From Saccharomycopsis phalli (lineage: Eukaryota > Ascomycota > Saccharomycetes > Ascoideales > Saccharomycopsidaceae): a stretch of 64,000 nt of DNA. The notes under the pieces are model-generated. The model saw nothing but the letters and a program-made list of their open reading frames with translations. It had not been told where the DNA came from and did not search any database. Below are positions 15,731 through 64,000 of this stretch, piece by piece (the first letter of the stretch is position 1; each line of letters starts with the position of its first letter). A program made the translations under genes and the position numbers. The DNA is taken from the NCBI GenBank assembly GCA_020342235.1, contig CP073218.1:1054001-1118000 (forward strand), written 5' to 3'.

Positions 15731-15801
15731 TTGAACAGATGGAAGCTTTCAACTAGTGCTGGTGGATGTTGAGGAACGAGCATGGAGGGTAATAATAACA
15801 T

Positions 15802-30290: not shown

Positions 30291-30445
30291 GTCTAGATAA
30301 ATCTACCTGGATGAATCATCTAGATAAATCAGTCTAGATAAATCAGTCTAGATAAATCAGTCTAGATAAGCCGGTATAGATAAGCCGGTCTAGATGTATC
30401 TGCCTAGATAAATCATCTAGATAAGCCAGTCTAGATAATCTCTGG
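30285..30445. repeat. 14-16-bp tandem repeats (cagtctagataaatc)
   Basis: About ten units of 'agtctagataaatc' with variants 'ccggtatagataag' and 'tgcctagataaatc'. The array ends about 80 bp before the ERG26 start and starts at the SINE-B fragment. Confidence 0.85.
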
Positions 30446-33270: not shown

Positions 33271-33684
33271 AGTCCGCTCGTTTTTCAAGCGTTCAAAGAG
33301 CCACATGAACATTTTGAGGCATTAATTCTTCCATAAATGCATTTTGCAGATGGCCCTGTAGAAGGCTGTCCATTTTATTAATAGACAAATATTTTCTAGG
33401 TACTGCATTGATAGATCTGGTCCATTTGTATTTCTTGATATATTGCAATTTTGTAATATCCAAAGGAATCATTGTATCATACAAACAGCAAAACATTTTA
33501 CAGTCTTTAACTGTTATGATCTGCGGTGCCTTTCGCTGCTACATTCAATCTGTTTATTTATGTTTCATTAGATTTTTTATTAAAGTGATACTATATTGCA
33601 AGGCTTTTATTCTAAACCCTTGACATTTTGGATGCCGCATCAGTTTTACGCCAGGCTTAAACATGACAAGGCATCAGTTGAAAG

Positions 33685-33694
33685 TATATAAAAG
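33685..33694 (+). promoter_or_regulatory. TATA box of first I9-like gene
   Basis: tatataaaag about 33 bp before the start codon, in a promoter block conserved with the second gene (gtataaatg at 34989). Confidence 0.6.
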
Positions 33695-33726
33695 GCCGAA
33701 TTCCATTCTAAAATCATTAAACAATC

Positions 33727-34197
33727 ATGAAATTCTTATTTTTTTTTGCTCTCTTTATTCTTGGAATCCAGGCACTTAACATTCCATTAGTGAAGAGGGG
33801 CTACCTGGGCAGTCCGCTTGTCCCCTACACAAAGCCATTATCATCTGGAAACCAACAAGATTTGGAAAACAAAATTTATGCTTCGGGCATTGAAAAACAT
33901 CAGGTTGGTAAATATTACGTCGTTTTTGATCAAGAAATTACCGATGAGCAGTTTACACATATTCATGTTTATTTACAACAACAGCAAACGGCCGCCATGA
34001 TAAATTCCAAGCTGGAAAGTTTCAAAGATTACATTAGAGATAAATCTAAAACTGAATATGGTGGAGTGACTGGTATTGATGATTCACATGGTTATGCGAT
34101 CGATGGGTATTTTTCTGAATCAGTTCTCTGGGAGTTGATTAACTCTAGCCTTGTCACTGGCATCATGATTCAAAACCCAGTGCTACAGGTACAATAA
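33727..34197 (+). CDS. secreted I9-like (subtilase prodomain-type) protein 1
   Basis: 156 residues. A signal peptide (MKFLFFFALFILGIQA) is followed by LNIPLVKR, a likely Kex2 site, and then one domain. The pattern KYYVVFDQEITDEQFTHIHVY, then SHGYAIDGYFSESVLWELI and VTGIMIQNPVLQVQ is that of the inhibitor I9 / subtilisin-propeptide fold (beta-alpha-beta, ending in a strand that enters the protease active site). No protease domain follows. Known stand-alone I9 proteins such as yeast Pbi2 inhibit the vacuolar subtilase Prb1 but lack a signal peptide. I infer a secreted subtilase inhibitor or an orphan prodomain; the remains of a subtilase lie 6 kb upstream. Next gene is a tandem duplicate. Confidence 0.75.
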   Translation: MKFLFFFALFILGIQALNIPLVKRGYLGSPLVPYTKPLSSGNQQDLENKIYASGIEKHQVGKYYVVFDQEITDEQFTHIHVYLQQQQTAAMINSKLESFKDYIRDKSKTEYGGVTGIDDSHGYAIDGYFSESVLWELINSSLVTGIMIQNPVLQVQ

Positions 34198-34329
34198 AAG
34201 ATTTAGATATTCTCTGAGGTACTTGCTGGAAAAGACTTTGGTGGAGTCTATCTTTAATGTGTGAAAGTTTCGGCGGCTCAGACCTTATTTAATGAGTCAA
34301 GGACAGTTTGAACAAGTTACTGAGTTAAT

Positions 34330-34440
34330 AGTAATAAAAATCATATATTTATTTATTGTATTTAGCTTTATTGCCTCTGGGTATAGCGATTTGACAAATA
34401 TACTGTCACTTGGGAAAATACCGAAGGCAGCTGTTGAAGA
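34330..34440 (-). mobile_element. LINE/SINE tail fragment between the I9-like genes
   Basis: The + strand shows 'aataaaaatcatatatttatt', then 'tatttagctttattgcctctgg', 'gatttgacaaatatact' and 'cttgggaaaata'. This is the reverse of the shared tail and lies in the same relative order as at 4195 and 10545. Confidence 0.55.
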
Positions 34441-35029
34441 AAACTCTATATCATTTCTCTCGGAGCTGTTTGGGATTAAAAAGTAGTACTGAAACTTTTT
34501 TGTCGTTGGCAAGAATCTTGTAAGTATTTGGCTGTGATTCTTCAGCCAAAATATAGACTTGGCAAAGGAAAATGGTTCTATGAATATACGATTTACGGTG
34601 AATTGTTGTGGTTTCAATATGGCACTAATTCTCTTCATGGATGCATGTTAAATGGCTCCTAAAGAAGGCTGTCAATTTTCTCAATAGATGGCATTAACAA
34701 ATCATAAAACATTATTCAGTCTTTGATAGTTAAGATTAGTCAAACTAGATACTTTCTACGTAATAATCCAAGTAGTATACGGCACCAATACATCAAGACT
34801 TGGGATGATACTGTTCATGATCTGCTATGCCTCTCGCCACTACATTCAATCTATTTATTTACGTTTCATTCGAATTCTGCATTGAATTGTTACTATATTG
34901 CAAGGATTTTATTTTAAGCCCTTGGAATTTTAGATGCCGCATCAATTTTACATCAGATTTTCAGCATGACAAGGCACTAGTTGAAAGTGTATAAATGACC
35001 TATTTCCATTTTAAAATCATAAATACATC

Positions 35030-35497
35030 ATGAAATTCATTTTTGTTTTTACTCTGTTTATTCTTGGGATCCAGGCGCTTAATATTCCATTAGTAAAGAG
35101 GGAGAAACTGCGCAATCCGCTTGTCCCCTACAAAATACCGATATCACCAGACGATGCATATGACAAAATCCTAAAAAAGTCTAGCTCTGATGTGGAATTA
35201 CATCAACTGGCTTTATATGACGTCAAGTTTAAGCCAAAAGTCACCACCAAGCAGATGGTGACCATTGTCAATTATTTAAACAAGCAGCAAGAGGCCGATA
35301 TGAAAAATTCCAAGCCGAAAAGTCTCAAGAATTACTTCAAGAGTAAAACTGGCAGTGAAAATGGTGGAGTGACTGAACTGGGAATCTCAGACGGTAGAGA
35401 GCTCAAGGGATGCTTCACTGGACCAGTTCTCTTGGAGTTGATTGGCAGTAGCCTTGTCACTGATATTACTTATGTAGATCCTTTGCCGTGGTTTTGA
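35030..35497 (+). CDS. secreted I9-like (subtilase prodomain-type) protein 2
   Basis: 155 residues, the tandem copy of the gene at 33727. The signal peptide and Kex2-like site (MKFIFVFTLFILGIQALNIPLVKR) are nearly identical. The domain is kept but diverged: LYDVKFKPKVTTKQMVTIVNYL, then DGRELKGCFTGPVLLELIGSSLVTDITYVDPL. The signal and promoter are better conserved than the domain surface and the C-terminal strand, where an inhibitor would touch its protease; this hints at changing targets but could also be drift. Both genes are open and full length. Confidence 0.72.
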   Translation: MKFIFVFTLFILGIQALNIPLVKREKLRNPLVPYKIPISPDDAYDKILKKSSSDVELHQLALYDVKFKPKVTTKQMVTIVNYLNKQQEADMKNSKPKSLKNYFKSKTGSENGGVTELGISDGRELKGCFTGPVLLELIGSSLVTDITYVDPLPWF

Positions 35498-35549
35498 TGG
35501 ATATCTTGGATCTTTCTGAGTTACTTAAAAGACTCGATGGAGACTATAT

Positions 35550-35860
35550 TTTCACTGGGGAAAATCCTGAGGTAGGTGTTGAAGAAAACTCACGTCAGCT
35601 CTTAGATCTCGAATAGTAGCCTGGGTCTAGATTCAATTTGAGCAGATTTGTCGATTCTTGGTACTTGGGGTTGTGTAATCCTGGTGCCCTTGCCAAGTTT
35701 GACTGCTGAATCTTGCCATGTGGAGGAATCATATTCCGACACTTTTTAGTAAAGCTCTACAAGTTTATATACTGTTTTCTGGTTGGAAAACACTTTCAAG
35801 TGTGTTGCGCATTCCATGAAGTCTAATTTACATGAAGTCAATGAGCTTATCATTCTTTGG
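35550..35860 (-). mobile_element. LINE 3' end fragment
   Basis: The + strand has 'tattttcactggggaaaatcctgagg' (split), 'gccaagtttgactgctgaatcttgccatg' (reverse of 'catggcgagattcagccgtcaaactgggc', the LINE 3' part, given split) and 'acactttcaagtgtgttgcgcattccatg' as in 32810-32840. A diverged 3' piece. Confidence 0.65.
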
Positions 35861-36154
35861 TGGCCTTTCTGGGTGGTTTGTTTTAGAACAGATTTTTCGG
35901 TGTAGCGGGCCATTTGAGCAAGAGTAATGGTATGAGTGCGTTGATAAATACGTAATGAAAAGGGCTTGCTTTTTTGTTAGCTACACTATTCCTTGGTTTC
36001 TCTTATTCTCCTTGGCTTGAAATTTTCGTAGCTTTCTGGCAATTCCACTTGTCGCCAATATTACTTTATTTCTGCTAAAACAACCCTATTGGCGACAAGA
36101 GCAAAGATATAGATGCTTGCTCTTTTCAATAATAATAATATGTTTAGTTAAGTC

Positions 36155-36330
36155 ATGGGTGTACTAGGATTCTAGAGGAGATTTATACTTTGCCGTCTAT
36201 CACCAAAGACGGCGTAGGATCCACACGCCTATTACTACGCCGGTTATTTATCTGTAGTCACTTGAATTGGGTTTGGACGTAGTGTGTAATGGGAGACAGA
36301 TCTCATTGGAGTCGATGAGCTCTTGCCATT
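36155..36330 (-). mobile_element. SINE-B fragment
   Basis: 'tactaggattctagaggaga' then 'tttgccgtctatcaccaaag' and 'acggcgtagg' match the reverse complement of SINE-B around 50000-50070, including both hairpin arms (GCCGTC and GACGGC). Weaker similarity continues to about 36300. Confidence 0.55.
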
Positions 36331-45458: not shown

Positions 45459-46136
45459 CTAATGAATTAGCTTGTGAAGAACACAGATATGAAAGTCTTG
45501 CTTTGCGTTAATGCCACAATTAGCACCATCTTTACTCACCTCTACTTTGGTCCTGCTCTCAACGAAAAATCCAAACTTCGTAACATAATAATCAACAAGC
45601 TCATGTTCTTCAATTACTATTGCCATAAATTTATCTATCACCACATGGTGCCTGGACTCAATATTGCCAATGTCTGCCTGGAGTACCTGCATAAGCAATT
45701 TCCCAGTAGAAGGGAAAAATGACGTGAATGCTGTAATCTCCAGTATTGAATAGTCTTGATTGTATGGTCGTATACCTATCGTCCCGATAGTATCTTGCAC
45801 CATCGCTTCCTCAAATCGTGATGACTCATTATAATCAACAACGTTAAGTTCTTCGCCATCCCACCATTCTTTGACTTTCCCTCCAGCAAGAATCCGCAGC
45901 TGGCTCTCTTTATCCAAAGTAATTATATACAAATAGCATCCAGAAATCGTGAACTTCAATGCTTCTAAAATCTTCTGACTATCTGGTACTCTTGGAGCAT
46001 TAACTATATCATATTTACGCCTAGGCTTATCATATCCTTTATTCAATATGAAAGCCAACTTAGTTTGATTCCATCTTGAATTCGCATTTTCTCCTGATAG
46101 CAATTCACCACGAATTTTGAATATGCGCATTGTCAT
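45459..46136 (-). CDS. unknown protein, possible GNAT-like fold
   Basis: 225 residues, not recognised with confidence. The layout suits a GCN5-related acetyltransferase-like fold: two early strands (KFTISGCYLYIITLD), SILEITAFTSFFPSTGKLLMQVLQ in the middle, then MAIVIEEHELVDYYVTKFGFF and a final strand FHICVLHKL. The 'HELVDYYvtkFGF' segment recalls a helix and strand seen in small fungal GNAT-like proteins. Convergent with EFM5. Met3 is an alternative start. It lies just before tRNA-Glu(UUC) and the LTR cluster. Confidence 0.6.
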   Translation of the reverse strand: MTMRIFKIRGELLSGENANSRWNQTKLAFILNKGYDKPRRKYDIVNAPRVPDSQKILEALKFTISGCYLYIITLDKESQLRILAGGKVKEWWDGEELNVVDYNESSRFEEAMVQDTIGTIGIRPYNQDYSILEITAFTSFFPSTGKLLMQVLQADIGNIESRHHVVIDKFMAIVIEEHELVDYYVTKFGFFVESRTKVEVSKDGANCGINAKQDFHICVLHKLIH

Positions 46137-46197
46137 AGAAGTTCCAGAAAAAGTATCTCATTACGGGCTGATAAAAAAATTTTAAATTTTTTCATAA

Positions 46198-46269
46198 CTC
46201 CGATACCGGGAGTCGAACCCGGGTCTGCTCGGTGAAAGCGAACCGTGCTAGCCGTTACACTATATCGGA
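46198..46269 (-). tRNA. tRNA-Glu (anticodon TTC)
   Basis: 72 nt. Acceptor TCCGATA pairs with TATCGGA; the A box TAGTGTAACGG and B box GGGTTCGACTCCC are intact. Anticodon stem GTTCG/CGAGC with loop CTTTCAC gives anticodon TTC. The discriminator is G. A run of T on the transcript strand about 20 nt downstream (near 46170) can end Pol III transcription. Ty1/copia LTRs begin 15 bp upstream of it. Confidence 0.95.
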
Positions 46270-46283
46270 TAACTTTTACTTTG

Positions 46284-46724
46284 TGTAACGGGCAATCCCC
46301 GGTACCTCTCCTTTGGTGCATAGAAGGTACACGTGAATGGCACGTGAAGGCATGCAACAGGCAATGAACAACATGAAGAAGAGCTGAATCCCTAGAACAA
46401 GGTCTAGGCCCTATGAGGATTCACCTTTAAGTTACATTGCACCAAGAGACAGGCTTGCTCCTCCCTATTAAGGATAAAGAAGGTCTAGACCGTCCTAAAA
46501 AGGATTCTGACGCTTCCACCAGACGCAAGTCAATTGAACACCTCCACCATATAGAATAATATAAATAGCTGGGAAACCTGCTATAAGCTCAACTCACTCT
46601 GGGAGAAATTCCATCTTAGCTTATTATAACAAACATTATTGTAAGCTTCTTCTATCCCCTCGGAATAGTACTTTTATTGAGGTAATACTGAATATCCTGA
46701 CGATTTGGGATATTGATTATTACA
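46284..46724 (+). mobile_element. solo LTR, family LTR-1, copy 1
   Basis: Starts TGTAACGGGCAATCC and ends GATTATTACA (441 bp). Flanked on both sides by CTTTG (46279-46283 and 46725-46729). A Ty1/copia-type solo LTR 15 bp from the 5' end of tRNA-Glu(UUC). It contains a TATA-like 'aatataaatagc' and several CACGTG sites. Confidence 0.88.
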
Positions 46725-46729
46725 CTTTG

Positions 46730-47510
46730 TGTAACGGGCAATCCTTGGTACCTCTTCTCTGGAGTATAGAAGGTACACGTGAATGGCACGTGAATGCATA
46801 CAACATGCAATGAACAACAGGAAGAGGACCGGGACGCTCCGGTGAACAAGGTATAACCCTTGTGAGGGTACGTCTTTAGGTCATGTACATCAAGAGACAG
46901 GTATACTCTTTCCTATTAAGGATAAAGAAGGTCCAGTCCGTCCCAAAAAGGGATTCTGACGTCTTTCCAGACGTAAGTCAATGGCACACCGCCACCATAT
47001 AGAATAATATAAATAGCTGGGAAACCTGCTATGAAGCCAACTCACTTTGGGAGAAATTCCATCTTAGCTTATGATGTACTAACAAAAAACCTTAGACTGT
47101 GATCAATGATAAGGAAAAACTTAATACGTAAATACGGCCCACAATATTAAATAAATAATATTGTAGGTTCGGAGCACAGAACTATCAGTAGCTACTATAA
47201 CAATTATACATTGTTCCAATCGATACCGTAATATACATTCTGTATATAAAATCCTGAACTAAATATTTTGGCGCAGTAAATCCCTCTTATAAGGCATTAT
47301 AGGTAGGGTAATACTTCTTCATCCGGTTGCAACCACATCATCAATAATCGTGGTTACGAGACCAAGAACTCTGATAGGATAAGTACATTTCACTAATGTA
47401 CGTCAGCTTATTATAACAAACATTATTGTAAGCTCCTTCTATCCCCTCGGAATAGTATTTTATTGAGGTAATACTGAATATCCTGACCATTTAGGATATT
47501 GACTATTACA
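46730..47510 (+). mobile_element. solo LTR, family LTR-1, copy 2, with a nested LTR
   Basis: Same termini and order as copy 1, interrupted at 47072-47405 by another solo LTR. Followed by CTTTG (47511-47515). More diverged from copy 1 than copy 3 is, hence probably older. Confidence 0.85.
47072..47405. mobile_element. solo LTR, distinct family LTR-7, nested in LTR-1
   Basis: 334 bp with ends TGATGTAC and GTACGTCA and 5-bp duplications GCTTA on both sides (47067-47071, 47406-47410). No internal coding sequence and no other copy in the window. A TATA-like 'tatataaaatc' lies near 47243. Orientation not certain. Confidence 0.7.
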
Positions 47511-47515
47511 CTTTG

Positions 47516-47956
47516 TGTAACGGGCAATCCCCGGTACCTCTCCTTTGGTGCATAGAAAGTACACGTGAATGACACGTGAAGGCATACAACAGGCAATGAA
47601 CAACATGAAGAAGACCTTGAGGGCTAGAACAAGGTCTAGGCCCTACGAGGATACATCTTTAAGTTACATTGCACCAAGAGTCAGACATACTCCTTCCTAT
47701 TAAGGACAAAAGAAGGTCGAGACCGTCCTAAAAAGGATTCTTACGCCTCCACCAGACACAAGACAATGGAACACCTCCACCATATAGAATAATATAAATA
47801 GCCGGGAAACCTGCTATAAGCTTAACTCACTTTGGGAGAAATTCCATCTTAGCTTATTATAACCAACATTATTGTAAGTTCCTCTATCCCCTCGGAATAG
47901 TTATTTTATAGAGGTAATATTGAATATCCTGGCGATTTAGGATATTGATTATTACA
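47516..47956 (+). mobile_element. solo LTR, family LTR-1, copy 3
   Basis: 441 bp, same termini as copies 1 and 2, again flanked by CTTTG on each side (47511-47515, 47957-47961). Confidence 0.88.
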
Positions 47957-47962
47957 CTTTGT

Positions 47963-48249
47963 TGTAACCAGTTAGATCCGATCTACTCCGGAGAATGCTA
48001 GTTATGCTGAATAAGGCGTCTGTGATTCCTTATTCACGTGTATGAAAGCTTACAATATTCATGACCGTAACTTTGCGTGACCTCCTCACGCCACCGTTTG
48101 TATATTTATCCTCACCCCTTACCAGGGCTCCATTCCTCACACGTGCACATATAACCCGGGCTTCCTCCCATCACGTGCACATATACAACCAGGGTCTCTA
48201 ACCTCTGTATCATTTCTCCTAACCAGGGAAGTGTACCTTCCTGGTTACA
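47963..48249. mobile_element. solo LTR, family LTR-2, inserted at the junction of LTR-1 and LTR-3
   Basis: 287 bp, TGTAACCAG at one end and CTGGTTACA at the other, flanked by TTTGT (47958-47962, 48250-48254). The duplication spans the first bases of the LTR-3 copy to its right, so LTR-2 arrived later than LTR-3. Holds several cacgtgcacatat words. Confidence 0.8.
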
Positions 48250-48251
48250 TT

Positions 48252-48634
48252 TGTAACAATAAAATCCTGGTGGTATCGTTACAATCACTTATAAATCGGT
48301 TAATTAACAATAAGAAGTATCGTTAACTACAAGATATAAGTTGTATAGTTATCTCAGAATGTATCTCTAAGTTACTTGATGATTTATTAGCTATTTCCTT
48401 CTGTATTTATATTATTCCAGAGACAGGGTTACCTCCTTCGTTAAGGTTTGCCTTAGATCCTCTTTCGGGATTCTTCCATACTCATCTCTGTACACGGCAG
48501 TGCTTTGACTTCCTTTCTCGTCACCATAGGCATCATCTCTTATCCGCACGTTGGCATGTGATGCTCACGTGCCATTTCATGTGACCAACACGTGCAACCC
48601 ACGTGTCTAGAGTAAACGATATTTTATCGTTACA
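48252..48634 (-). mobile_element. solo LTR, family LTR-3, minus copy
   Basis: 383 bp; near-identical in reverse to the plus copy at 50247-50629 and with the same inverted ends (TGTAAC... / ...CGTTACA). Confidence 0.85.
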
Positions 48635-48641
48635 TACTTCT

Positions 48642-49082
48642 TGTACTATTCAATATCCTAAATGATCAGGATATTCAGTATTACTATAACAGAATTTATT
48701 CAACGCTTCTGCTTTAACACTTATATCGAGTTAATCAATAAGATAATAAGAGTAACTACAAATATAAGTTGTAAATAGTTCTAAAGTGAACTTAAGATAT
48801 CTCATTACTAGCAGCTTAAACAGCTATTTATACTTTTCCTAAGAATGGATTTGTACTTGTGTAATATGTGGGACACTCCGAACACAATCACAATAGTACT
48901 AAGGAACACAATCACAACATTATCACGGGGCACAGTCACGTGAAGAGTAGTCTTGACCTTTTCTCGTTACAATTACCTCAATAAAATAATATTCCGAGGG
49001 GATAGAAGAAGCTTACAATAATGTTTGTTATAATAAGCTAAGATGGAATTTCTCCCAAAGTGAGTTCAGCTTATAGCAGGTT
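48642..49082 (-). mobile_element. partial LTR-1 with nested LTR-4
   Basis: A minus-strand LTR-1 from its TGTA..ATTCAATATCC end to about 49082, where it is cut short at the LTR-5 sequence. LTR-4 lies inside it. Confidence 0.75.
48685..48971. mobile_element. solo LTR, family LTR-4, nested in LTR-1
   Basis: 287 bp between two ATTAC duplications (48680-48684, 48972-48976). Part of the same family in the opposite direction lies at 57869-57989. Confidence 0.75.
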
Positions 49083-49446
49083 TTGACGTTGTTGAAAGTG
49101 CTGAAAGTGTTGAAGGAGTTAATGCATGGTGAAATACATCATGCATGATAAATAAGCTGGTATTGAGAAATAGCAATCTTTCAGTACCATGATATCATAC
49201 TGTTTATGGTATATTAAGAGTATGAGGTCATAGTATTAGCAATCTAATAAAGTTATCAGGTCATACTAATAGTGAACTGATAATAATATGAGGTCATACT
49301 AATAATGATGTCATGAGATAAAGATAACTGAAGGCATCTCAGAAGGAATATAAATAGGACAGGAAATAGTTAGTATAGTAACAAGAATAAGAATATCTAC
49401 AATAGTAAGATATGGAAGCCATTGAGAGAAACGCTAGCTTACGACA
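49083..49446 (+). mobile_element. solo LTR, family LTR-5, plus copy
   Basis: Reverse complement of most of the LTR at 57004-57418 (shared long stretches such as aggtcatactaatagtgaac and aaggcatctcagaa). Its 3' end (ggaagccattgagagaaacgctagc, given split) is closer to the LTR of element B (62637-62888). No clear target duplication. Confidence 0.75.
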
Positions 49447-49519
49447 CTTCTTACCGTAAGGTAAATACTCTAAGAGCACAGCGAATCGCTTCTCTTTTAG
49501 AGTCATTCTAGTAATCATG

Positions 49520-49649
49520 TTATCTTTTTGAAACATGATTGATTGATTCATCGGTGACAGCGCACACAGGGCTGTTTAGCAGTGCAACAAAGCCTTTAAG
49601 CGCATGGTTAAATTTAATAGTTCCATACTCAGTCTTGAATAGCACAGAA
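49520..49649 (-). mobile_element. Ty1/copia Gag fragment
   Basis: A short minus-strand stretch with similarity to the Gag region 'F.T.KAEYGT..F..A..G' of elements B and C. It is a small broken fossil piece next to the LTR-A relative. Confidence 0.5.
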
Positions 49650-49779
49650 TGTTGTGCCATGATGATTAAAATCCGAACTAGCCGAACAATCCGAGGTTGC
49701 TATTCAGAAGACTGTAAATATGAGGTGAAGTGCCTCACAAAAAGTAAATAGTCTACCGATAAGATAAAAAAGTTAATAC

Positions 49780-49792
49780 AAACAATTTGTCA
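49780..49792. repeat. target-site duplication, left copy (SINE-B)
   Basis: aaacaatttgtca, identical to 50093-50105. Confidence 0.92.
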
Positions 49793-50092
49793 GGTTGTCA
49801 CCTTTGGCGCAGTTGTTTATCCCGCCTGATAGGAAGGCACCATCACGGGTTCAATTCGATGCTTAGTGACAACCCTACGGCAGGCTACCGAGTTAGTACC
49901 CGCGGCGAAACCTCGCAGCCTGTCCCATGCACAAATTACCAGCACAACTACCAAATCCCGCTTGGAGTTTTTCTACCCACTTGAAGGGTTTTCTCTGAGC
50001 AACATATATAGCGGCGCCGTCCCTAGTCTTAGACGGTGAAATATCAATCTCTCTGGAGCCAAAGTATAGCTATAGCCTTAAATAAAAAAAAA
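49793..50092 (+). mobile_element. SINE-like element B: tRNA-like head, body, LINE-type tail, poly(A)
   Basis: 300 bp, no protein coded. Head: GGTTGTCAC (49793-49801) pairs perfectly over 9 bp with GTGACAACC (49866-49874), like an acceptor stem. The A box TGGCGCAGTTG lies at 49805-49815 and the B box GGTTCAATTCG at 49848-49858, 32 bp apart. A body of about 170 bp contains the hairpin GCCGTC...GACGG (50016-50037). The tail (tctggagccaaagtatagct, atagcc) resembles the LINE tail (tccggagacaatatatagct, aaatac) and ends in a poly(A) run. The 13-bp target duplication is perfect. The same LTR without this insert is present at 50748-51058 and 56021-56331, giving an empty site. Confidence 0.85.
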
Positions 50093-50105
50093 AAACAATT
50101 TGTCA
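50093..50105. repeat. target-site duplication, right copy (SINE-B)
   Basis: aaacaatttgtca directly after the poly(A) run; the LTR sequence resumes after it with catatctcagttaaag. Confidence 0.92.
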
Positions 50106-50161
50106 CATATCTCAGTTAAAGAAATATTTTCCAAAAAACAACTTATACAACAAAAATAAAA

Positions 50162-50233
50162 CTCCGATACGGGGAATTGAACCCCGATCTGCGCTGTGAG
50201 AGAGCACCGTGCTAGCCATTACACTATATCGGA
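50162..50233 (-). tRNA. tRNA-Glu (anticodon CTC)
   Basis: 72 nt. Acceptor TCCGATA/TATCGGA; A box TAGTGTAATGG; B box GGGGTTCAATTCCCC. The anticodon stem GTGCT/AGCGC with loop CTCTCAC gives anticodon CTC. Discriminator G. It is bracketed by an LTR-A relative 9 bp on its 3' side and LTR-3 13 bp upstream of its 5' end. Confidence 0.95.
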
Positions 50234-50246
50234 AGAGTTTATTTAT

Positions 50247-50629
50247 TGTAACGATAAACTATTGTTTACACTAGACACGTGGGATACACGTGTTGGTCAC
50301 ATGGGATGACACGTGAGCATCACATGCCAACGTGCGGATAAGAGATGATGCCTATGGTGACGAGAAAGGAAGTCAAAGCACTGCCGTGTACAGAGATGAG
50401 TATGGAAGAATCACGAAAGAGGATCTAATGCAAACCTTATTGAAGGAAGTAACCCTGTCTCTGGAATAATATAAATACAGAAGGAAATAGCTAATAAAAC
50501 ATCAAGTAACTTAGAGATACAATCTGAGATAACTATACAACTTATATCTTGTAGTTAACAATACTTCATATTGTTAATTAGCTAATTTATAAGTGATTGT
50601 AACGATACCACCAGGATTTTATCGTTACA
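50247..50629 (+). mobile_element. solo LTR, family LTR-3, plus copy
   Basis: 383 bp with perfect 12-bp inverted ends TGTAACGATAAA / TTTATCGTTACA and TTTAT duplications (50242-50246, 50630-50634). It carries CACGTG/CACATG sites and 'aatataaatac'. Starts 13 bp upstream of tRNA-Glu(CUC). Confidence 0.88.
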
Positions 50630-50634
50630 TTTAT

Positions 50635-50747
50635 GTGTTATAATTAAAGGTCAAGGCGCCGTCGAATAATAATTATTATATAACGAAATTAGTTCGATGG
50701 GTTCGTTATATCACTTATACAATCCAGTTAGCAATACAAGATACGCT
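50635..50747. other. short spacer with a hairpin
   Basis: Holds 'ggcgccgtcgaataata' and an inverted 'ataacgaa..ttcgttat' pair. No gene or known element. Confidence 0.35.
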
Positions 50748-53700
50748 TGTTGTAATTTGGAAAGTCTTTCTTTAGCTGACATCTTTGATAAACTGTTTGT
50801 ATTAACTTATTTATCTTATAGGTAAACTACTTACTTATTGTGGGCACATTGCCTCTTATTTATAGTCCTCTTATAAGCTACGGCGTGTCGTAATGCCGCT
50901 TAACTAATGCCATTTAGCTACGGCATATTGTAATGCCGTTTAGCTAATGCCGTTTAGCTAATGCCATTTAGCTACGGCCTATTGTAATGCCGTTTAGCTA
51001 ATGCCATTTAGCTAATGCCGTTTAGCTAATGCCGTCTCGGATTTTAATCATCACAACACCCTCCCATAATTAAAATTTCCTCATACCACTCAGCATCCGA
51101 AGTTTTTGAAATTGCTCTCTTGATAATCCCTTGGTAAGCATATCAGCTAGCATCTTGTCAGTAGTTAGGTGTCGTAGTTCAATGTTGCCATTTTTCACAT
51201 GATGCCTGATAAAGTGATGCTTGATATCAATATGTTTAGTTCGATCATGTGACACTGGGTTTTTAGCAATATTAACGCAGCTCACATTGTCATCATGAAC
51301 TATCAATTTTGCCAAGGGGATACCAAGTTCTGCAAACACCTGCTGTAACCATAGAGCATCTTTAATACCGTCAGTTAATGCCATGTATTCGGCTTCTGCC
51401 GTCGACAAAGCAATAGTCGACTGTTTTCTAGATCTCCAAGTAATAGCACCACCGCTATACCTAAACATGAAACCAGTAGTTGACTTTCTTTCCGTCTTAT
51501 CAGTAGCCCAGTCAGCATCACAATATCCCAAAAGATAATTCCCATGATCCTTTCTGGAATAAACAATTTTCATATCCTCTGTTGCCTTCAAATATCTAAG
51601 AACACGCTTCGCAGCAACCCAATGCTTTTCCTTTGGAGATTGTAAATATCTTGATAACACACCAACAATATAAGCAATATCAAACCGGACTGTATTAACA
51701 GCAAAAAGTAATTTGCCAACCAAGGATCGATACATTGTGGCATCCCAGTCCTTTGAGTCATCAGTTATAGTTAGATCCTGATTAGGATCCGCTGGTGTGT
51801 AGATAGGATTGCAATCTACCATCTGATACTCCTTTAGCATCAGGCGAACATAATCATGAAGAGAAAGCAGTATTGAGGCCTTATCTTGACTAATGTTCAT
51901 TCCAAGAAACTTGCTAGCAACTCCTAGGTCTTTCATCTTAAAGTGCAGCATCAATTGAGCTTTAACCTTATCAATTTCAGTCTGATTATTTCCAGCAATG
52001 AGAAGATCGTCGACATAAAGTGCGACCATAATAAACAAATTCCCATTTTTCTTAGAATACAAACAATACTCCGCAGAGTTTTGCTTAAAACCAATCACAT
52101 GTAACACTTCATTGATTTTGTCATTCCAAACCATTGGAGCTTGCTTCAAACCATAAATCGACTTATTAAGCTTAAGAACATGATCTTCTTTTCCTTTGAC
52201 CACAAAACCTTCAGGTTGAATCATGTAAAGGTCTTCCCTTAAATCACCATTGAGAAAAGCCGTTTTCACATCCATCTGATGAATAGTAAGTCTATATCTT
52301 GCAGCAATGGACAACATGATTCGAATAGAAGCATACCTAATGACAGGCGCAAAAGTTTCCACATAATCAAGTCCTTTAATCTGAGTAAAACCTCTAGCCA
52401 CAAGTCGTGCCTTGTGTTGACCATCACTCTTAATTGTAAAAACCCAACGGCAAGTGATAGGTCGACGACCTTGCTTAGGTGGAACTAACAGAAAAGTCTG
52501 ATTCTCATAGTGGGCTTCCATTTCCTTTTGAATAGCGTCTTTCCATAAGTAAGCATCATCAGAAGTAACAGCTTGATCAAATGTCATAGGTACATTCTCA
52601 AGAGAATGTTTAGCAGCCATAAAACAAGTAGCAGGATAATTCACACCATTCGTATTCATTTCGGATTCATCTGTATCATCTGAGAGTGGCGTCTTAACGG
52701 ATGTCAGGACACCATCATTAGAAGAACCATTTGTGACAATATCAGAGACACGAGGCTTCTTATCCCTCCCTGAAGACGAACGGTGGGTAGTAGGATCATG
52801 TTCATCAGAACTAAGCGGACCAGGAAAAAGGGGCTTAGGTTGGGAGCCTTTGTGACGGATAAGACGCTTTTGCGGCAAAGCAGAAGGTGGAGGCGGAGGC
52901 GGAGGAGGAGGACCAGCTGAAGTAGATACATCTTCCAGATATCTGAGGTCAGAATCCGGGATTTTAGTACGTGAAATCTTCAGCTTTCCGTAGTACTTAT
53001 AGATAATCTCATTTTGAGGTGTCTTTGGAAGATTATCAAAAGTAGTCGGAGGTATATCACCACAAAACGGGTTATAGTTGGGATCATAGCGCTTAACCCT
53101 TGGATATGGGATAGGCCGCTTGTCTGACGGAGACCGATCATACTTGAAGAGATTGTGAGATGAACTGGAGTTCTTATAATCAATGGGATTGGTGTAAGGA
53201 ACTTCTTGTGCTTGAGGAGTAGCAGGACGAGACAGTGATGTTTGTTGGGCAACATGATTGTCCAGCGACAGTGAAGTATCAGACTCCGCAGAAGTAGATT
53301 GTGATACATATTTCACAACCTGAAGTTGGGGTGATCCCGAAGTACTACCTGCAACCAGGTCAGTAGTTCCAGGGATATATTCCAACCGTCTGGGGTCGAG
53401 TATCTCTGAGTCACTGATCTCATCCGCATGAGACTCAGGCTCATCTGGTGTGTGCAGAAATCCAGGGTACGTGATGGCTTCACGACTTGGTTGAGGATCA
53501 TCAAGGACAAGATGATTCTTATTAGAACCATTAGGATTACTCACATCAATCAGATCAATAGTAGAGGTCAGGTCAATTTCAGCATCTGAAGCGTCAGCGA
53601 TGATTAGTTCATTTGACTTGGATGAACCAGAAACGACTAATTCATTTCCAATTTCGCGAGCAGCAGTGCGAATTAAGGCAGTATTATGATCCCTTAAGTA

Positions 53701-56331
53701 ACCAAGCTCAGATCCAGTATCTTCAGCCAACTCAGACGCATTACCGTATGCATCTGATTTAGATACTGTATCATTATCGTCCACTATCAACGAGGTGTCC
53801 AGAGGGTCAAGCTCGGATTCAACTGTCAATTCATCTCTAGTCATAGAAATAGCTGGCTGAGAATTCATAGGTAGAGAATGAATCCCTCCAATCTTTGGAT
53901 TGCCAACCCCAGAAATTTGAGGAGGATTGATTGTGCTAGTCAGCGCCAGAGACACAGTTGGATAAAAAAATTTATCCTCCTCAAAAATTGCTTGAGCAGC
54001 GCAAATAACCTTATTTGTTCTGGGGTCATAGAGTCGATATGCTTTTCGTTGCAATTCATAGCCAATCATGACACAAGGAGAGGCTTTAGCATCGAGCTTT
54101 CCTTGACGGAGGGCCTTAGGAATAATAGCATAAGCAACACATCCAAATTCTCGGAGAAATTTGTAGTTGAAAGAGCGACCATACCATCGTTTGTATGGGA
54201 CATCAAAATCAATAGAGCGTGATGGCGTACAATTAGCCAAAAACACAGCAGTATTGATTGCTTCAGGCCAAAGTTGAGCTGGAACATTGGTGTGAAGCAT
54301 AAGAGCGCGGGCTTTATCTTGAAGTGTACGGTTCATTCGTTCGGCAACGCCATTTTGATACGAATGATGGGGTACCGTGGTTTCGTGAGAGATGCCACGC
54401 TTGGTGAGGAAGTTAGTCAATTCTTCACTCACAAACTCACCTCCATTATCTGTACGGAGAGTACCAACGCAGTAGGTCAAGCCCTTGCTGCGGAACATTG
54501 TTTCAGAGGTATTAATAAAATTAATGATACCTTGAGTGCATCCAGATTTCTTATTGAGGCAAACAACAGTGGTCCATTTTGTATAGCCGTCAACAATAGT
54601 CAAGAAATACCGAGATGCATCGTAGGATCCGTAGTTAAATGGCCCACAAAGATCCACATGGACTAACTCAAGTGGCTGAGAAGGATTGGTGGTCCGTTCT
54701 TTAGGAGCAGAGTCAACAGTTTTACCAGTAATACATCCGGTACAACTCAGTAAACTCTGACCAGCCTTCCAGAGTGGATGGATCTTAACGAGCGAAGCCA
54801 TAACAGAAGCGCTAGGGTGGCCAAGTCTTCTATGCCAGCGATCAATATCACGGCCAGAGGACACAGCCTTGTAAGCAATCTGCTTCGGAATCACAGTAGA
54901 AGGTTCACATGAAACAGTGTAAAGGTTTGAAAGTGGATCTCGATGAGCAAACATTTTCTTGGTGGAGCGGATAGTAGCACCTTGATGATTGAAGAGAAAT
55001 TCTAACTTATGATTAGAAGCTTTTCCAACCGAGATAAGGTTAGCAATACCGTTAGGAGTGTAACCAACATCATGTAGAATAAAAGGTCCAGCTGGAGTAG
55101 AAATCCGAACTGTACCTTTCCCAACAATAGCAAGGTTTCCAGCAACACCCAGAATAGAGCCATTCTCTGGAATCATGTCTTGAAAGAAACGAATGTCAGA
55201 GAAGAAATGTCCACTGGCACCAGTATCAAGAAATGTTGGTATCAGTAACAGATGTCCAAGGAAGGAATAAGCCAACATACCTTGAGGATACTCTTCATCA
55301 TATGGTTGTTGCTTTTCCTTCTTTTTACCTTTGCGACGAGGTTTGGACGTCTTCTTAGACAGAGAATCGTGACCCAAAAGTGCAAGACTGTTCAGACGAA
55401 CATACTCATGCGATCCAGTTATCTCATGCAAGACCTGATACAGAAGAGTATTAGTAGTAATCCCCTTGTGTTCAAGCTCTTTAATGACGCTTGAGATAAC
55501 CGGATATGGCACACCAAGTTGCATCATGTTATCCAAAGTCCATAATGCAATGATTGCCTCCTTAGTCAATTGCTGTCTAACCAACAAATTTTTGCGTTGA
55601 AGCATTGCCCTGATGTCAACAAACTCAGTGGGCCTAGTAGCTTCTTCCAGAATCCCAGCGCTAGTGAGAGCCACTGGGAGTGGAAGAGTACCATACTTCT
55701 CTTGAAGAAACAAAAATTGATTTCTAGCAGTCAGACGTGAGTGCGTGGAGCGAATAATTCCGCGAATCTCTTGGCTAATGCTTGCCTTGAGAATAATACC
55801 AAACACGCTATCCAATTGTTCAATAAAGAAAGCAGAAGAAATGTCCGAGACATCGTTTAGTTCAATGCTCAGAGTTCCATTTTCGGCGTATTGAAGTAAG
55901 CCGACCCCGAAGCCAAAAAGAAAGTCCTCGAGTTCCTTCATCCAAACATGATAAGTCTCTGGACCAGTCAATGTTAATTCAGAGGGGAACTGCAGGACGC
56001 TTGCAGGATGCATCATAACCTGTTGTAATTTGGAAAGTCTTTCTTTAGCTGACATCTTTGATAAACTGTTTGTATTAACTTATTTATCTTATAGGTAAAC
56101 TACTTACTTATTGTGGGCACATTGCCTCTTATTTATAGTCCTCTTATAAGCTACGGCGTGTCGTAATGCCGCTTAACTAATGCCATTTAGCTACGGCGTA
56201 TTATAATGCCGTTTAGCTAATGCTGTTTAGCTAATGCCGTTTAACCAATGCCGATAGCTAATGCCGTTTAGCTAATGCCGTTTAACCAATGCCGATAGCT
56301 AATGCCGTCTCGGATTTTAATCATCACAACA
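50748..56331 (-). mobile_element. Ty1/copia element A, looks whole
   Basis: Two 311-bp LTRs (50748-51058 and 56021-56331) begin TGTTGT and end ACAACA; they are nearly identical apart from changes in an internal array of 14-bp 'tagctaatgccgtt' units, which points to a recent insertion. One uninterrupted frame on the minus strand (56055-51070) begins inside the 5' LTR. In order it shows Gag (ending in a Lys/Arg-rich run), aspartic protease (FLDTGASGHF), the GAG-pre-integrase/integrase zinc part (WHRRLGHPS), the integrase core, reverse transcriptase (YVDDLL) and RNase H. Gag and Pol are thus one frame. The five bases flanking the two LTRs do not match, so the locus may have recombined. Confidence 0.9.
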
Positions 56332-57989: not shown

Positions 57990-60900
57990 TGTCGTAAGCT
58001 AGCGTTTCTTTCAATGGCTTCCATATCTTACTGTTGTAGATATTCTTATTCTTGTTACTATTCTAGCTATTTTCTGTCCTATTTATATTTTTCTCTGAGA
58101 TGCCTTCAGTTATCCTTAACTTCAGATACCTTTACCGGTGATCTCCTTAATGTATGATATCGTTGTCGATCTCCTTAATTTATGTGATCACCAGTAGGAC
58201 GATCTCCTTAATCTCTCAGATCTTCAACACGATCTTCAACACCCTCTCTTAACTGAAAGCTTCTCATTCCACACATAAGTCTTAGCTTCTTGAATTGTCT
58301 CTCAGACAAAGCCTTAGTAAACATATCTGCTAGCATCTCCTCAGTTCCAAGATGCTTGAGTTCCATTTCTCCTGAGGCAATATGACTTCTAATAAAATGA
58401 TGTCTAATGTCAATATGCTTTGTTCTATTGTGTAACGCTGGATGTTTAGCAATATTAATACAGCTAGCATTATCTTCATGAATGACTGCTTCATTCAATT
58501 TTATACCTAGCTCTTTAAACACCAGCTTCAACCACAACATTTCCTTAACACCATCTCCAAGAGCCATATATTCTGCCTCAGCAGTAGATAATGCAATTGT
58601 TGATTGTTTCCTTGATTTCCAAGTAATTGCACCATTGCCAAACTTAAAAACATACCCTGTCGTCGATTTTCTATCTGTCTTATCAGTCGCCCAGTCAGCG
58701 TCACAGAAACCATTTAACATCGCGTCTTTGTTTCTCGTATATGTGATTCCCAACTGCTTTGTTCCTTTCAAATATTTCACCACTCTCTTTGCTGCTGTCC
58801 AGTGGATTTCTTTTGGAGTCTTGAGATATCTGGATAACACTCCAACAATATAACCAATATCAAGACGGGCAGTATTAGTCGCAAACAACAATTTTCCAAC
58901 TAGTGATCGGTATTCTGTAGCATTACATGGTTTTGAGTTGTTGTCACAGTTTGTTAGATCTTGGTTTGTGGCAGCAGGGATTGCAACTGGTTTTGCATCT
59001 CTCATCTGGAATTCTGATAACATTGTTTCAATATAATCCTCCAACAGCAAACTGATAATCTTGCTATCTTGATAAATATTCATTCCAAGAAATTTTGTAG
59101 CAACCCCCAAATCTTTCATTTTAAAATGTTGCATCAATTGATCTTTAACCTTTTGAATATTACTTACTTGATTTCCAGCAATAAGTATGTCATCAACATA
59201 AAGTGCAATCATGATAAAACTGCTGCCCTCTCTCTTTGAATACAAGCAATTTTCAGCCGCATTATTCTTAAAGCCCAACTCTTGTAGTATATCATTAATC
59301 CTGTTGTTCCACACGAGCGGTGCTTGTTTCAAACCATATAACGACTTTTCAAGTTTAAGAACATAATCTTCTTTTCCTTTAACCTCAAACCCTTCTGGTT
59401 GTTCCATGTAAATGTCTTCCTTTAATTCTCCATTAAGGAACGCAGTCTTCACATCCATCTGATGTATAGTAAGTCCATAGTTTCCTGCAATTGATAACAT
59501 GATTCTTATTGATTCATATCTTATGACTGGTGCAAATGTTTCAGTATAATCAATCCCTTTCACTTGTGTAAATCCCCTCGCAACTAACCTTGCCTTATAT
59601 CTTCCATCATCTTTGATAGAGAAAACCCAGCGACACGAAATTGCCTTTCGTCTTTGAGGAGGAACTAAAACAAAAGTTCCATTCTGATTATGAGCTTCTA
59701 TTTCTTCCATAATTGCTTTTTCCCATTTCTTGCTGTCATTGCCTCGAACTGCTTGTGTGAAAGTTATTGGTATGTCGTTGCGTAAATGAGATTCGGCCAT
59801 TAAACATGTGGCCACGTGATTAATACCCTCATCACTTAATTCTTCCGATCCTGACGATACCACAATTCTATGTTTTAGAGATATGAAGTCATTACTCGAT
59901 TCCAAATCTCCGCTGTTAATTACCAAATCTGATCCCCGATATCGCTTATCCCCCTTTGAAGCTGAACGTATCATAGGGTTAGCTTCATCAGAGCTAGAGG
60001 GGCCATCATCAGATGTACTACTCAGATTTTCCAGACTATGTTTTATAGAGCGTTTCCTTGGTGTTCGTCCGAGACGCCGATTAGTGTCACTAGAGAATTC
60101 TGATTCACTTCTTGATACATGTAAACTTTCATCATCTGGCGTAGATGAAGTTCCACTGTCCCCAGAATCATTCTTTATACTCTCAATGTCATCACCAGAT
60201 AAATTTTCACCATGATCGCTGATATCTGCCAAATTATCCTCATCAGTAATAGTAGTACTTGCGATAGTATCAACACTGTCCTCAGTATCATTACTAGTTG
60301 GGTCCTTTTCACCACGATCCATAACTTTATCTGCTGTTGTATCGTCCGTCCCACTAGCACTCTTAACATTTTCATTATTCACATCGACATTCTCACATTC
60401 AACTTCGTCATCTTGGTCAGTTCTCCCTGAAACTTTGCGTTTTCTTTTCTTCACCTTAGTACTAATTGACCGATCACTATTAACTGGCACAGCTCCAATA
60501 CCCTTGGCCGTTCCTCCAATACCCACAATTGAGTTTTCCGCAGATGCTTCTTGCGCCATAGACACAGCGGAATAATAATAGCTACCTTCATCAAAGCGAA
60601 CATGCGTTGCAGTTACAATCGTTCGCTTAGCCGGATCAAACAACCTATATGCCTTTCGTAATGTTTCATATCCTAGCATAACACACTTAATTCCTGTTGC
60701 CGCAAACTTTCCAGCTCGGATCTCAGCCGGAATATTGCCATAAGCCACGCATCCAAATACTCTGAGTATGGACAAATTAGGTTTATTTCCAGTCCATCTA
60801 AAATATGGACTCTCTCCATTAATAGTTCTGGATGGGCTTCTATTAATGAGATAGACTGCAGTCAATACTGCTTCTGGCCAGAGTTCTACTGGCACATTAC

Positions 60901-62888
60901 TCGCATGCATCATAGCTCTCGTCTTTTCTTGAATGGTCCGATGCATGCGTTCCGCCACCCCATTCTGATAGGAGTGATATGGAACTGTCAACTCATGACT
61001 AATTCCCTTTGTTTTAAAGAACTGATGTAGAGCTTTATTCACAAACTCTCCTCCATTATCAGTTCTAACAATACCAGTACAGAACTGTAATCCTTTACTC
61101 TGAAATTGTCTCTCACTGTTAACAATAAACTGAATCAATGCTTCTGTACTTTCTGATTTGTTCTTAAGACATACCACATGAGTCCATTTAGTATAACCAT
61201 CAACCACTGTTAGAAAATACTTGGATTCATTCACCGACTTATAATTAAATGGTCCACACACATCAACATGTAATAATTGGAGTGGTTGTATCGGCTGTGT
61301 AGTTCGCAGTTTTGGAATACTTACTGTAGTTTTAGTTACTGAACATTCACCACACATAGTGATTTGATCGCTACTATTCCAAAGATCATGTTCTTTATTA
61401 ATACTTTCCATAACATTAGTACCAGGATGTCCTAACCGCCGATGCCAAGTCTCGATATTATCTTTTGATTTAGCTTTAAAAGCAACAATTCCATTATCAG
61501 AGTTCTGAATCCTGTAGAGTCCTGTATCCAGTTCTTTGATTGCGATTACTTGTTTTGTAACATAATCAATAGCCTTCTCTCCATCAAACAAGATTTTAGC
61601 CCCACTGTCTGTTGCTCGTGAAACTGACACAAGATTAACTTCACCACCTGGAGTATAGTATGCATCCTTCAATTGTATAGTAGTCCCACCAAGCAAATTC
61701 ATACAAACTTTACCTTTTGCAGTAATCGCCAACAGACCCCCAATTCCTTTAATCCGATCATCATGGGTTTCCAAAGATTCAAATAACGCCTTGTTTGCCA
61801 TAAAGTGTCTCGATGCCCCACTATCAAGATATGTGGGATACCTTTCCGCAACCCCATGGTATGCAAGCCATGAGTGATTGTTCTTCGATAATGCATGTTT
61901 CTCATCATCATCGGTTTCCTTAAGTACCTTCTTACAATCCTTTTTCACATGTCCCTTTTTACCGCACTTAAAACAGGTCACCTGACGTCGTACCTTCCGA
62001 TGTCCTAGAAATGCCGAATGATTATTACCAGCCTGATATTCACCATCCATTTTGCTAAAAAGATGCATAAAATTTGAAGTTTCCGCATTAATTCCTCGAT
62101 TATCATACCGGTCAATAAAGTTTTGGATAACATGTTCCGGAACTTGCTCTTGTCGAAGAATAAAGATCCCAATAATACATGATTGCATTTCCTGACTAAA
62201 GTTTGAAAAGTAGTTCCGATGCCGTTCCATGGCATATTCAAATGGCGATAGTGTGCTGGAAGATGGCGATACACTGATTGTACCCTTGACTGCTTGAGCA
62301 AATGACATTGTCCCATACTCAGCCTTGATTGTATGGAACCGTTCTCGTGCAGTCGAGCATTGAATTCTCTCAGTATATTGTGCAACCTTTTCAGTAACTC
62401 CCTTTCGTAATAATAACGCAATAATACCATCTAAAACAGTCGCCGCATTATTTACCACTTCATTTGGTGATCCATCTGGTAATCCAAGGTCCCCATGAAC
62501 AAGGTACTGAACAAGACCGAAACCAATCAGATCGAGCTTGTAGACAAACAACTTTGCCCATCGAGCATAATTGGTAGCTCCTTGCAACTTTTCTGTTGGT
62601 TCAAAAGTTGCCTCGCTTCCAGGGTTACTCATAACCTGTCGTAAGCTAGCGTTTCTTTCAATGGCTTCCATATCTTACTGTTGTAGATATTCTTATTCTT
62701 GTTACTATTCTAGCTATTTTCTGTCCTATTTATATTTTTCTCTGAGATGCCTTCAGTTATCCTTAACTTCAGATACCTTTACCGGTGATCTCCTTAATGT
62801 ATGATATCGTTGTCGATCTCCTTAATTTATGTGATCACCAGTAGGACGATCTCCTTAATCTCTCAGATCTTCAACACGATCTTCAACA
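57990..62888 (-). mobile_element. Ty1/copia element B, looks whole and young
   Basis: Two LTRs of 252 bp (57990-58241 and 62637-62888), TGTCGTAAGC to TTCAACA, look identical by eye, so insertion or duplication was very recent. One uninterrupted minus-strand frame of 1487 codons (62671-58208) starts and stops inside the LTRs: Gag with a CCHC knuckle (CFKCGKKGHVKKDC), protease (LDSGAS), integrase (WHRRLGHPGTN), reverse transcriptase (YVDDIL) and RNase H. The right LTR is shared with the next copy. Confidence 0.9.
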
Positions 62889-64000
62889 CCCTCTCTTAAC
62901 TGAAAGCTTCTCATTCCACACATAAGTCTTAGCTTCTTGAATTGTCTCTCAGACAAAGCCTTAGTAAACATATCTGCTAGCATCTCCTCAGTTCCAAGAT
63001 GCTTGAGTTCCATTTCTCCTGAGGCAATATGACTTCTAATAAAATGATGTCTAATGTCAATATGCTTTGTTCTATTGTGTAACGCTGGATGTTTAGCAAT
63101 ATTAATACAGCTAGCATTATCTTCATGAATGACTGCTTCATTCAATTTTATACCTAGCTCTTTAAACACCAGCTTCAACCACAACATTTCCTTAACACCA
63201 TCTCCAAGAGCCATATATTCTGCCTCAGCAGTAGATAATGCAATTGTTGATTGTTTCCTTGATTTCCAAGTAATTGCACCATTGCCAAACTTAAAAACAT
63301 ACCCTGTCGTCGATTTTCTATCTGTCTTATCAGTCGCCCAGTCAGCGTCACAGAAACCATTTAACATCGCGTCTTTGTTTCTCGTATATGTGATTCCCAA
63401 CTGCTTTGTTCCTTTCAAATATTTCACCACTCTCTTTGCTGCTGTCCAGTGGATTTCTTTTGGAGTCTTGAGATATCTGGATAACACTCCAACAATATAA
63501 CCAATATCAAGACGGGCAGTATTAGTCGCAAACAACAATTTTCCAACTAGTGATCGGTATTCTGTAGCATTACATGGTTTTGAGTTGTTGTCACAGTTTG
63601 TTAGATCTTGGTTTGTGGCAGCAGGGATTGCAACTGGTTTTGCATCTCTCATCTGGAATTCTGATAACATTGTTTCAATATAATCCTCCAACAGCAAACT
63701 GATAATCTTGCTATCTTGATAAATATTCATTCCAAGAAATTTTGTAGCAACCCCCAAATCTTTCATTTTAAAATGTTGCATCAATTGATCTTTAACCTTT
63801 TGAATATTACTTACTTGATTTCCAGCAATAAGTATGTCATCAACATAAAGTGCAATCATGATAAAACTGCTGCCCTCTCTCTTTGAATACAAGCAATTTT
63901 CAGCCGCATTATTCTTAAAGCCCAACTCTTGTAGTATATCATTAATCCTGTTGTTCCACACGAGCGGTGCTTGTTTCAAACCATATAACGACTTTTCAAG
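62637..64000 (-). mobile_element. second, tandem copy of element B (runs off the window)
   Basis: From 62637 on, the sequence repeats 57990-59353 with an offset of 4647 bp and, as far as I compared, no difference. It uses the right LTR of the first copy as its own 3' LTR, so the two copies form an LTR-internal-LTR-internal array. Confidence 0.9.

Follow-up and report, generated by a model that had tools for sequence, protein, structure and literature searches.

Introduction

SINE-type elements are well known in animals and moulds, and the budding yeasts have the best-studied small eukaryotic genomes. A 64-kb stretch of DNA, the whole of which is called the window here, raises the question of whether an element of this type, moved by a LINE, also inhabits a budding yeast. 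An earlier note on this DNA had described a young, non-coding insert of 300 bp within an old LTR and had read it as a tRNA-derived SINE. In this study, the insert, termed element A, was analysed together with the other repeats of the window.

Host code and genomic setting

The placement of the host among the budding yeasts, which the earlier note had proposed, agrees with the genetic code of the window. Two full copia ORFs were aligned with CTG masked, giving 31 CTG sites. CTG codons are not aligned with leucine: they face S at 5 of these sites, N at 4, A, P and Q at 3 each and L at 1, and serine has the best BLOSUM62 score among the twenty residues. The other leucine codons, in the unmasked alignment, mostly face leucine (134 sites), the next commonest partner being I, with 18. 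Judged from these alignments, CUG is reassigned, most likely to serine. To our knowledge, a reassigned nuclear CUG is found only among budding yeasts, which places the host in this group. The surrounding genes (Msb1, Med14, phosphomannose isomerase, GrpE and others) fit a budding yeast as well. Yarrowia lipolytica, to which we return below, lies outside the CUG-reassigned group.

The region from 46000 to 51100 is densely packed with LTRs and copia fragments and includes two tRNA-Glu genes (46198–46269 and 50161–50234). Inverted arms with 95% identity lie at 48252–48634 and 50247–50629, and the second arm begins 12 bases past the 5' end of a tRNA-Glu gene. Two more copia ORFs are found on the minus strand, at 58208–62671 and 62855–63859; the shorter is 100% identical to the longer over 334 residues, which indicates a very recent duplication or insertion.

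Element A and its insertion site

Element A and the LTR that it splits consist of the following parts:

49654–50142, minus strand: remnant of an old copia-type LTR, interrupted by element A (alignment for 49706–49792 and 50079–50142; outer limits by eye)
49780–49792, plus strand: 5' target-site duplication of element A, AAACAATTTGTCA (from the sequence)
49793–50092, plus strand: element A, SINE-like insert of 300 bp (from the duplications and the LTR comparison)
49793–49874, plus strand: head of element A, closed by a perfect 9-bp stem
49962–50000, plus strand: central U-rich hairpin of element A (motif AGTTTTTCTACCC..GGGTTTTCT at 49966–49994; outer limits by eye)
50011–50080, plus strand: LINE-like 3' tail of element A, type 2 (hairpin GCCGTC..GACGG, then ..GTATAGC)
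50084–50092, plus strand: poly(A) end of element A (the 12-A run extends to 50095 within the 3' duplication)
50093–50105, plus strand: 3' target-site duplication of element A, AAACAATTTGTCA (from the sequence)

The 300-bp insert at 49793–50092 (plus strand) lies, almost to the base, where it had been placed before, and much of its earlier description stands. The two copies of the target duplication match at 13 of 13 positions. The reported poly(A) run is present as 12 A's at 50084–50095 and marks the 3' border; the final three of these are counted in the duplication. The longest open frame is 68 codons from stop to stop, in keeping with a non-coding element. Once the insert is removed, its flanks join and align unbroken, across the insertion point, to the reversed copia LTR, so the insert does interrupt an old LTR. 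By blastn, the split LTR matches the intact LTR at 84% identity on one side (87 columns) and at 77% on the other (65 columns), the latter alignment taking in some of the poly(A) of element A.

The uninterrupted form of the LTR had been reported twice nearby, at 50748–51058 and 56021–56331. Both copies are indeed intact, but they are the two LTRs of a single copia element, with an ORF at 51070–56055 (Ty5-type Gag, RVT_2) and LTRs that are 94.9% identical to each other. Thus the "empty site" sets the borders of the insert as claimed, but it is a diverged paralogue and not an allele, which also follows from the identities of only 84% and 77% between the split and the intact LTR. The sole basis for calling element A young is the unmutated state of its 13-bp duplication within an LTR that has diverged much further.

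A second element of the same plan

A second insert, element B, was missed by the earlier note and came to light through a weak tail match. It is on the minus strand:

10999–11012, minus strand: 5' target-site duplication of element B, ACTGAAAGCGGTAG
10532–10998, minus strand: element B, second SINE-like insert of 467 bp, with a different head
10904–10998, minus strand: head of element B (A box 10985–10975, B box 10928–10919)
10641–10685, minus strand: central U-rich hairpin of element B, motif as in A
10533–10630, minus strand: LINE-like 3' tail of element B, type 1 (profile and pairwise match)
10518–10531, minus strand: 3' target-site duplication of element B, ACTGAAAGCGGTAG

The duplications of element B are identical (14/14 bp). 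Its 3' end is only AT-rich, CTTAACTTA; a simple-repeat or A-rich end is therefore doubtful in B and evident in A.

The whole window was screened blindly for exact direct repeats of at least 13 bp at spacings of 250–550 bp. Thirteen runs were found, 11 of which have spacings of 445–448 and fall within a repeated block at 46.2–48.0 kb. The remaining two, at spacings of 313 and 481, are the duplications of A and B, respectively; both thus flank elements bearing Pol III boxes. When the screen was widened to 200–700, minus 440–450, one extra 13-bp run appeared, inside a copia ORF. That the insert could be an indel in an LTR next to a random direct repeat agrees with the fact that repeats are common throughout the window and with nothing more. 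The tail homology described below and the second element effectively refute this reading, to which we give next to no credence; with two elements built alike in these 64 kb, coincidence is very unlikely.

LINE relics and two types of 3' tail

The window holds the remains of LINEs and a number of tails related to those of A and B:

25914–26369, plus strand: decayed LINE reverse transcriptase piece, RVT_1 (relic at about 23.4–26.98 kb, outer limits by eye)
29334–30300, plus strand: LINE 3' end C, closing part of the LINE reading frame, with a type-2 tail at 30231–30300
11564–12230, plus strand: LINE 3' end F, with a type-1 tail at 12107–12200 and a TTATTATT end
35543–35836, minus strand: LINE 3' end K, with a partial type-1 tail at 35580–35543
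34337–34435, minus strand: type-1 tail relic (tail profile)
23081–23169, minus strand: type-1 tail relic (tail profile)
4200–4275, minus strand: type-1 tail relic (tail profile)
36141–36235, minus strand: type-2 tail relic D (tail profile)
15645–15731, minus strand: type-2 tail relic E (tail profile)

The read-through piece at 25914–26369 matches RVT_1 with E=9.9e-08 (32.4 bits; cut-off 29.6) and weakly matches R2 and L1 proteins in PDB (best E=0.0019), in an order (R2 before L1) too weak to decide the LINE clade. By its look, the relic may be Tad1-like. The presumed LINE endonuclease, read by eye only, and the presumed ORF1 gave no Pfam family in any of the three pieces searched, and the piece past the reverse transcriptase matched no Pfam family. 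About 90 residues are open at 24200–24500 in the relic region, with no Pfam match, and may be a remnant of a LINE ORF1.

A chain of repeats connects the RVT_1 relic with the LINE 3' ends C, F and K. The continuation of the relic, 26541–26841, is 82% identical to 29334–29633 over 301 columns; 29642–29981 is 71% identical to 11564–11904 over 353 columns; and 11908–12111 is 69% identical to 35836–35627 over 219 columns. Over their last 100 or so bases, these ends and the tail relics sort into two types. Type 1 comprises F and K together with the relics near 34.3, 23.1 and 4.2 kb; type 2 comprises C together with the relics near 36.2 and 15.7 kb. The two types differ, by eye, in a hairpin that stands at an equivalent place and is best preserved in some copies and worn in others, and they share a related ending, ..GGAGnC..TATAGC.., after the hairpin. 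Several LINE tails in the window terminate in TTA repeats, whereas element A has poly(A), a difference that counts against the SINE reading.

For profile models, five type-1 and three type-2 tails were used, with A and B excluded. The type-1 model matches element B with E=1.6e-21 (72.1 bits) and the type-2 model matches element A with E=6.1e-07 (25.1 bits). The maxima in 20 local shuffles of the window for each model were 7.3 bits (type 1) and 9.6 bits (type 2), and no score above 2.3 bits came from the reversed window. Weaker matches, outside the parts listed above, are found at 4540–4576 (E=0.00031) and 19353–19294 (E=0.003) for type 1, and at 36186–36223 on the plus strand (E=0.077) for type 2. 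In pairwise comparison, the tail of element B is 83.75% identical to LINE end F (12117–12194) over 80 columns. The tail of element A matches D at 71% over 73 columns (E=7e-06) and matches the LINE-anchored tail C weakly (E=2.7). On these matches, the LINE link of B is direct and that of A is one step longer, by way of D and E, each of which may be LINE or SINE. The LINE-like tail that had been claimed for the insert is thus borne out by its match to a model of relic tails, with LINE relics in the same window.

Duplications were also sought around tails F, D, H, I, G, E, J, C and 4583, where at most 11 bases match; the same measure gives 14 for A and 17 for B. These other tails are accordingly classed as relics of LINE or undetermined nature and not as SINEs. 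Inspection by eye showed no convincing tRNA-like head upstream of C, D or J.

Some further repeats adjoin these tails. A tandem duplication (33318–34255 and 34621–35551, 69%) carries two small ORFs (156 and 155 aa); downstream of each, on the opposite strand, lies a type-1 LINE tail relic. The 155-aa ORF has no Pfam match. Just past tail D, at 36046–36106, there is a perfect 12-bp inverted repeat, TTGTCGCCAATA and TATTGGCGACAA.

The central hairpin

Elements A and B share a central hairpin ahead of the tail, and its motif occurs once more in the window:

4774–4797, plus strand: central hairpin motif, third copy, with tail-like sequence (by eye) after it

Three copies of the motif AGTTTTTYWNCCC..GGGTTTTCT are found in the window (A, B and 4774–4797), against none in 100 shuffles; since the pattern was drawn up with the three copies already known, the shuffles speak only against a chance origin and are no independent test. 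A and B have the same kind of hairpin fold with a U-rich internal loop, and the third copy did not yield that fold. The outer stems, CTTGGAG/CTCTGAG in A and ATTGAAG/CTTCAAT in B, differ by double compensation in two of seven pairs (by eye). By eye, C, I and K seem to carry degenerate versions of the hairpin, which is therefore probably a feature of the LINE 3' region.

A T5 run lies inside the central hairpin of both A (49968–49972) and B. In S. cerevisiae, T5 is a weak Pol III terminator. The run might stop Pol III ahead of the LINE tail, which is a point against read-through.

At 4735–4893, the third hairpin copy and the tail-like stretch adjoin the first ATG (4893) of a MED14-like ORF, in which the Pfam Med14 domain begins at residue 129. 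The first part of this ORF may be element-derived, or the true start may lie further in.

Promoter boxes and possible tRNA likeness of the heads

The A and B boxes attributed to element A were located at 49805–49816 and 49848–49857. The whole window was searched for an exact B box with an upstream A box (one mismatch allowed), and six such pairs were found: the two tRNA-Glu genes, A, B, 19532 and 4111. In 50 shuffled windows, the mean was 0.7 and the maximum 3. The pairs at 19532, located in LINE-like repeat sequence, and at 4111, around which no element was recognised, were rejected as elements. A and B are short, and their boxes lie within 80 bp of a 5' border fixed by duplication.

The head of element A is closed by GGTTGTCAC (49793–49801), which pairs with GTGACAACC (49866–49874) over 9 bp with no mismatch. 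When the first 110 bases of the element were dinucleotide-shuffled 5000 times, no shuffle reached a terminal stem of 9 bp; of 20000 random positions in the window, 13 did. The pairing is therefore as perfect as first described, but the stem is not the standard 7-bp acceptor: it is longer and shifted, with 12 bases ahead of the A box compared with 7 in a tRNA. The fold of this head beats 198 of 200 dinucleotide shuffles (z -2.41). The remainder, 49880–50082, gave a fold z of -0.19, and no overall structure is claimed for it beyond local hairpins.

The ends of head B can be paired by eye as GGGGC/GCCCC plus GGTTTGG/CCAAACC around a 4-nt bulge; the perfect terminal stem is 5 bp only. The minimum-energy fold pairs the ends in another register, without GGTTTGG/CCAAACC; the pairing seen by eye is partly drawn by ARAGORN at a relaxed threshold.

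Neither head was called a tRNA by the Rfam covariance models or by ARAGORN at default settings. At the relaxed threshold, ARAGORN draws cloverleaf-like figures for the heads, but also for the opposite strand of head A. The heads were then compared with provisional reference sequences of five yeast tRNAs and with the two tRNA-Glu of the window (14 comparisons), and each score was set against 500 single-base shuffles of the head. For head A, the scores with the yeast tRNA-Leu(CAA) and tRNA-Ile(AAU) were reached by 0 of 500 shuffles each, and that with tRNA-Leu(UAG) by 2 of 500. For head B, the score with tRNA-Leu(UAG) was reached by 2 of 500 and that with Leu(UAA) by 7 of 500. For each of the nine remaining comparisons, between 43 and 457 of 500 shuffles reached the score. 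By these scores, head A appears tRNA-like, and it probably descends from a tRNA gene.

A and B could also be non-autonomous derivatives of LINEs in which the A and B boxes are fortuitous. Such derivatives would account for a tail and (by eye) a central hairpin in common with LINE ends, and box pairs do arise by chance at the rate given above. However, in both elements the boxes lie at most 80 bp from the border that the duplication sets, and the heads resemble tRNA, as judged with the provisional references. We regard such an origin as very improbable.

Copy number and the origin of the elements

The heads and bodies of A (169 bases) and B (299 bases) were compared, unmasked, with the 64 kb, and each matched itself only; the sole further match with E up to 1 involves 25 bases of the body of B (E=0.14). 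A 29-base exact head pattern had no match in prokaryotic and viral contigs and a 35-base hairpin pattern none in viral contigs, collections that are uninformative for a yeast. With each head present once in 64 kb, the status of A and B as "families" is something that we infer.

The main rival explanation starts from this single-copy state. A and B may be one-off chimeric retrogenes, in which the LINE enzyme starts on a LINE 3' end, jumps to a tRNA-like RNA and integrates once, with no propagation. Chimeras of this sort, many with 10–20-bp duplications, are known in Magnaporthe, according to the account in PMC2104539. But the heads are too diverged from tRNAs to pass for fresh copies, while the stem of A is intact and the boxes are good. 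An extra body of about 87 nt in A and about 215 nt in B lies between head and central hairpin, the central hairpin is common to both, and two independent chimeras of the same plan within 64 kb would be surprising. We therefore consider one-off chimeras unlikely, though less so than the other alternatives.

Discussion

In our view, each element is quite likely a SINE transcribed by Pol III and moved by a LINE through its 3' tail. The earlier reading of the insert as a tRNA-derived SINE moved by a LINE is supported in that its structural hallmarks hold, apart from a stem that is longer and shifted relative to the tRNA acceptor. The internal type-2 Pol III promoter of head A (A and B boxes) would drive transcription from head to tail. 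The 3' part of the resulting Pol III RNA would copy a LINE 3' end, comprising two hairpins, the first of them U-rich, and a conserved end. The LINE reverse transcriptase would bind this tail, nick genomic DNA and copy the RNA into the nick, and integration there would leave the duplication of 13–14 bp. Element B would be a second SINE, with a different head and with the tail of another LINE lineage. Since A and B carry different tail types, reading by different LINE lineages is suggested. We infer Pol III transcription, recognition of the tail by the LINE enzyme and the presence of further copies.

Similar systems have been described in other fungi and in animals. AfuSINE2 of Aspergillus fumigatus, as presented in PMC5063351, has tRNA-related heads from several tRNAs and duplications of 4–14 bp, and one of its elements has a 3' end like the 3' UTR of a Tad1/I-type LINE. 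By description, A and B are like AfuSINE2 in their putatively tRNA-related heads, duplications and LINE-like 3' end; the differences are that AfuSINE2 belongs to a filamentous fungus, whereas the present elements occur in a CUG-reassigned budding yeast, with two tail types in one window and a common central hairpin. Mg-SINE of Magnaporthe is a tRNA-derived element of 472 bp (as reported in PMC5063351), and its 3' end resembles that of its LINE, MGL (PMC2104539). Again by description, this is the same LINE-like SINE 3' end in another lineage. In fish, UnaL2 and ZfL2 form LINE/SINE pairs of the stringent type; ZfL2 belongs to the L2 clade, and each of the two LINEs ZfL2-1 and ZfL2-2 recognises a stem-loop of its own, as summarised in PMC4176376. 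Here, too, the SINE has a LINE 3' tail with a stem-loop; recognition of the tail is experimental for UnaL2/ZfL2, whereas for A and B it would follow from the likeness of the tails. Among budding yeasts, Yarrowia lipolytica has both a LINE, Ylli, and tDNA pseudogenes, and the authors of PMC5014426 speculate that LINEs could spread tDNAs. Both features make it a parallel to the host studied here, but the accessible text of that article describes no SINE.

The earlier note knew of few or no SINE reports for budding yeasts, and this impression was not contradicted: none is among the matches listed from the open literature. In the yeast review PMC7175516, the string "sine" has 0 matches, and in a second yeast review, PMC5499181, the sole match is the species name Eremothecium sinecaudum. 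LINE-tailed SINEs of fungi are known from Aspergillus and Magnaporthe; in budding yeasts, as far as these sources go, the kind seems unreported.

In sum, we lean towards the view that at least two SINE lineages exist in this CUG-reassigned budding yeast, that each depends on its own LINE lineage by way of the hairpin of its 3' tail, that the two share an older central hairpin, and that they would be the first SINEs in Saccharomycotina. If this is true, a small yeast genome contains a two-LINE, two-SINE system. If the elements are real, the yeast would offer a compact and perhaps genetically tractable host for the study of SINE–LINE parasitism, in which tail recognition by two types of LINE and the problem of the Pol III terminator would be directly testable.
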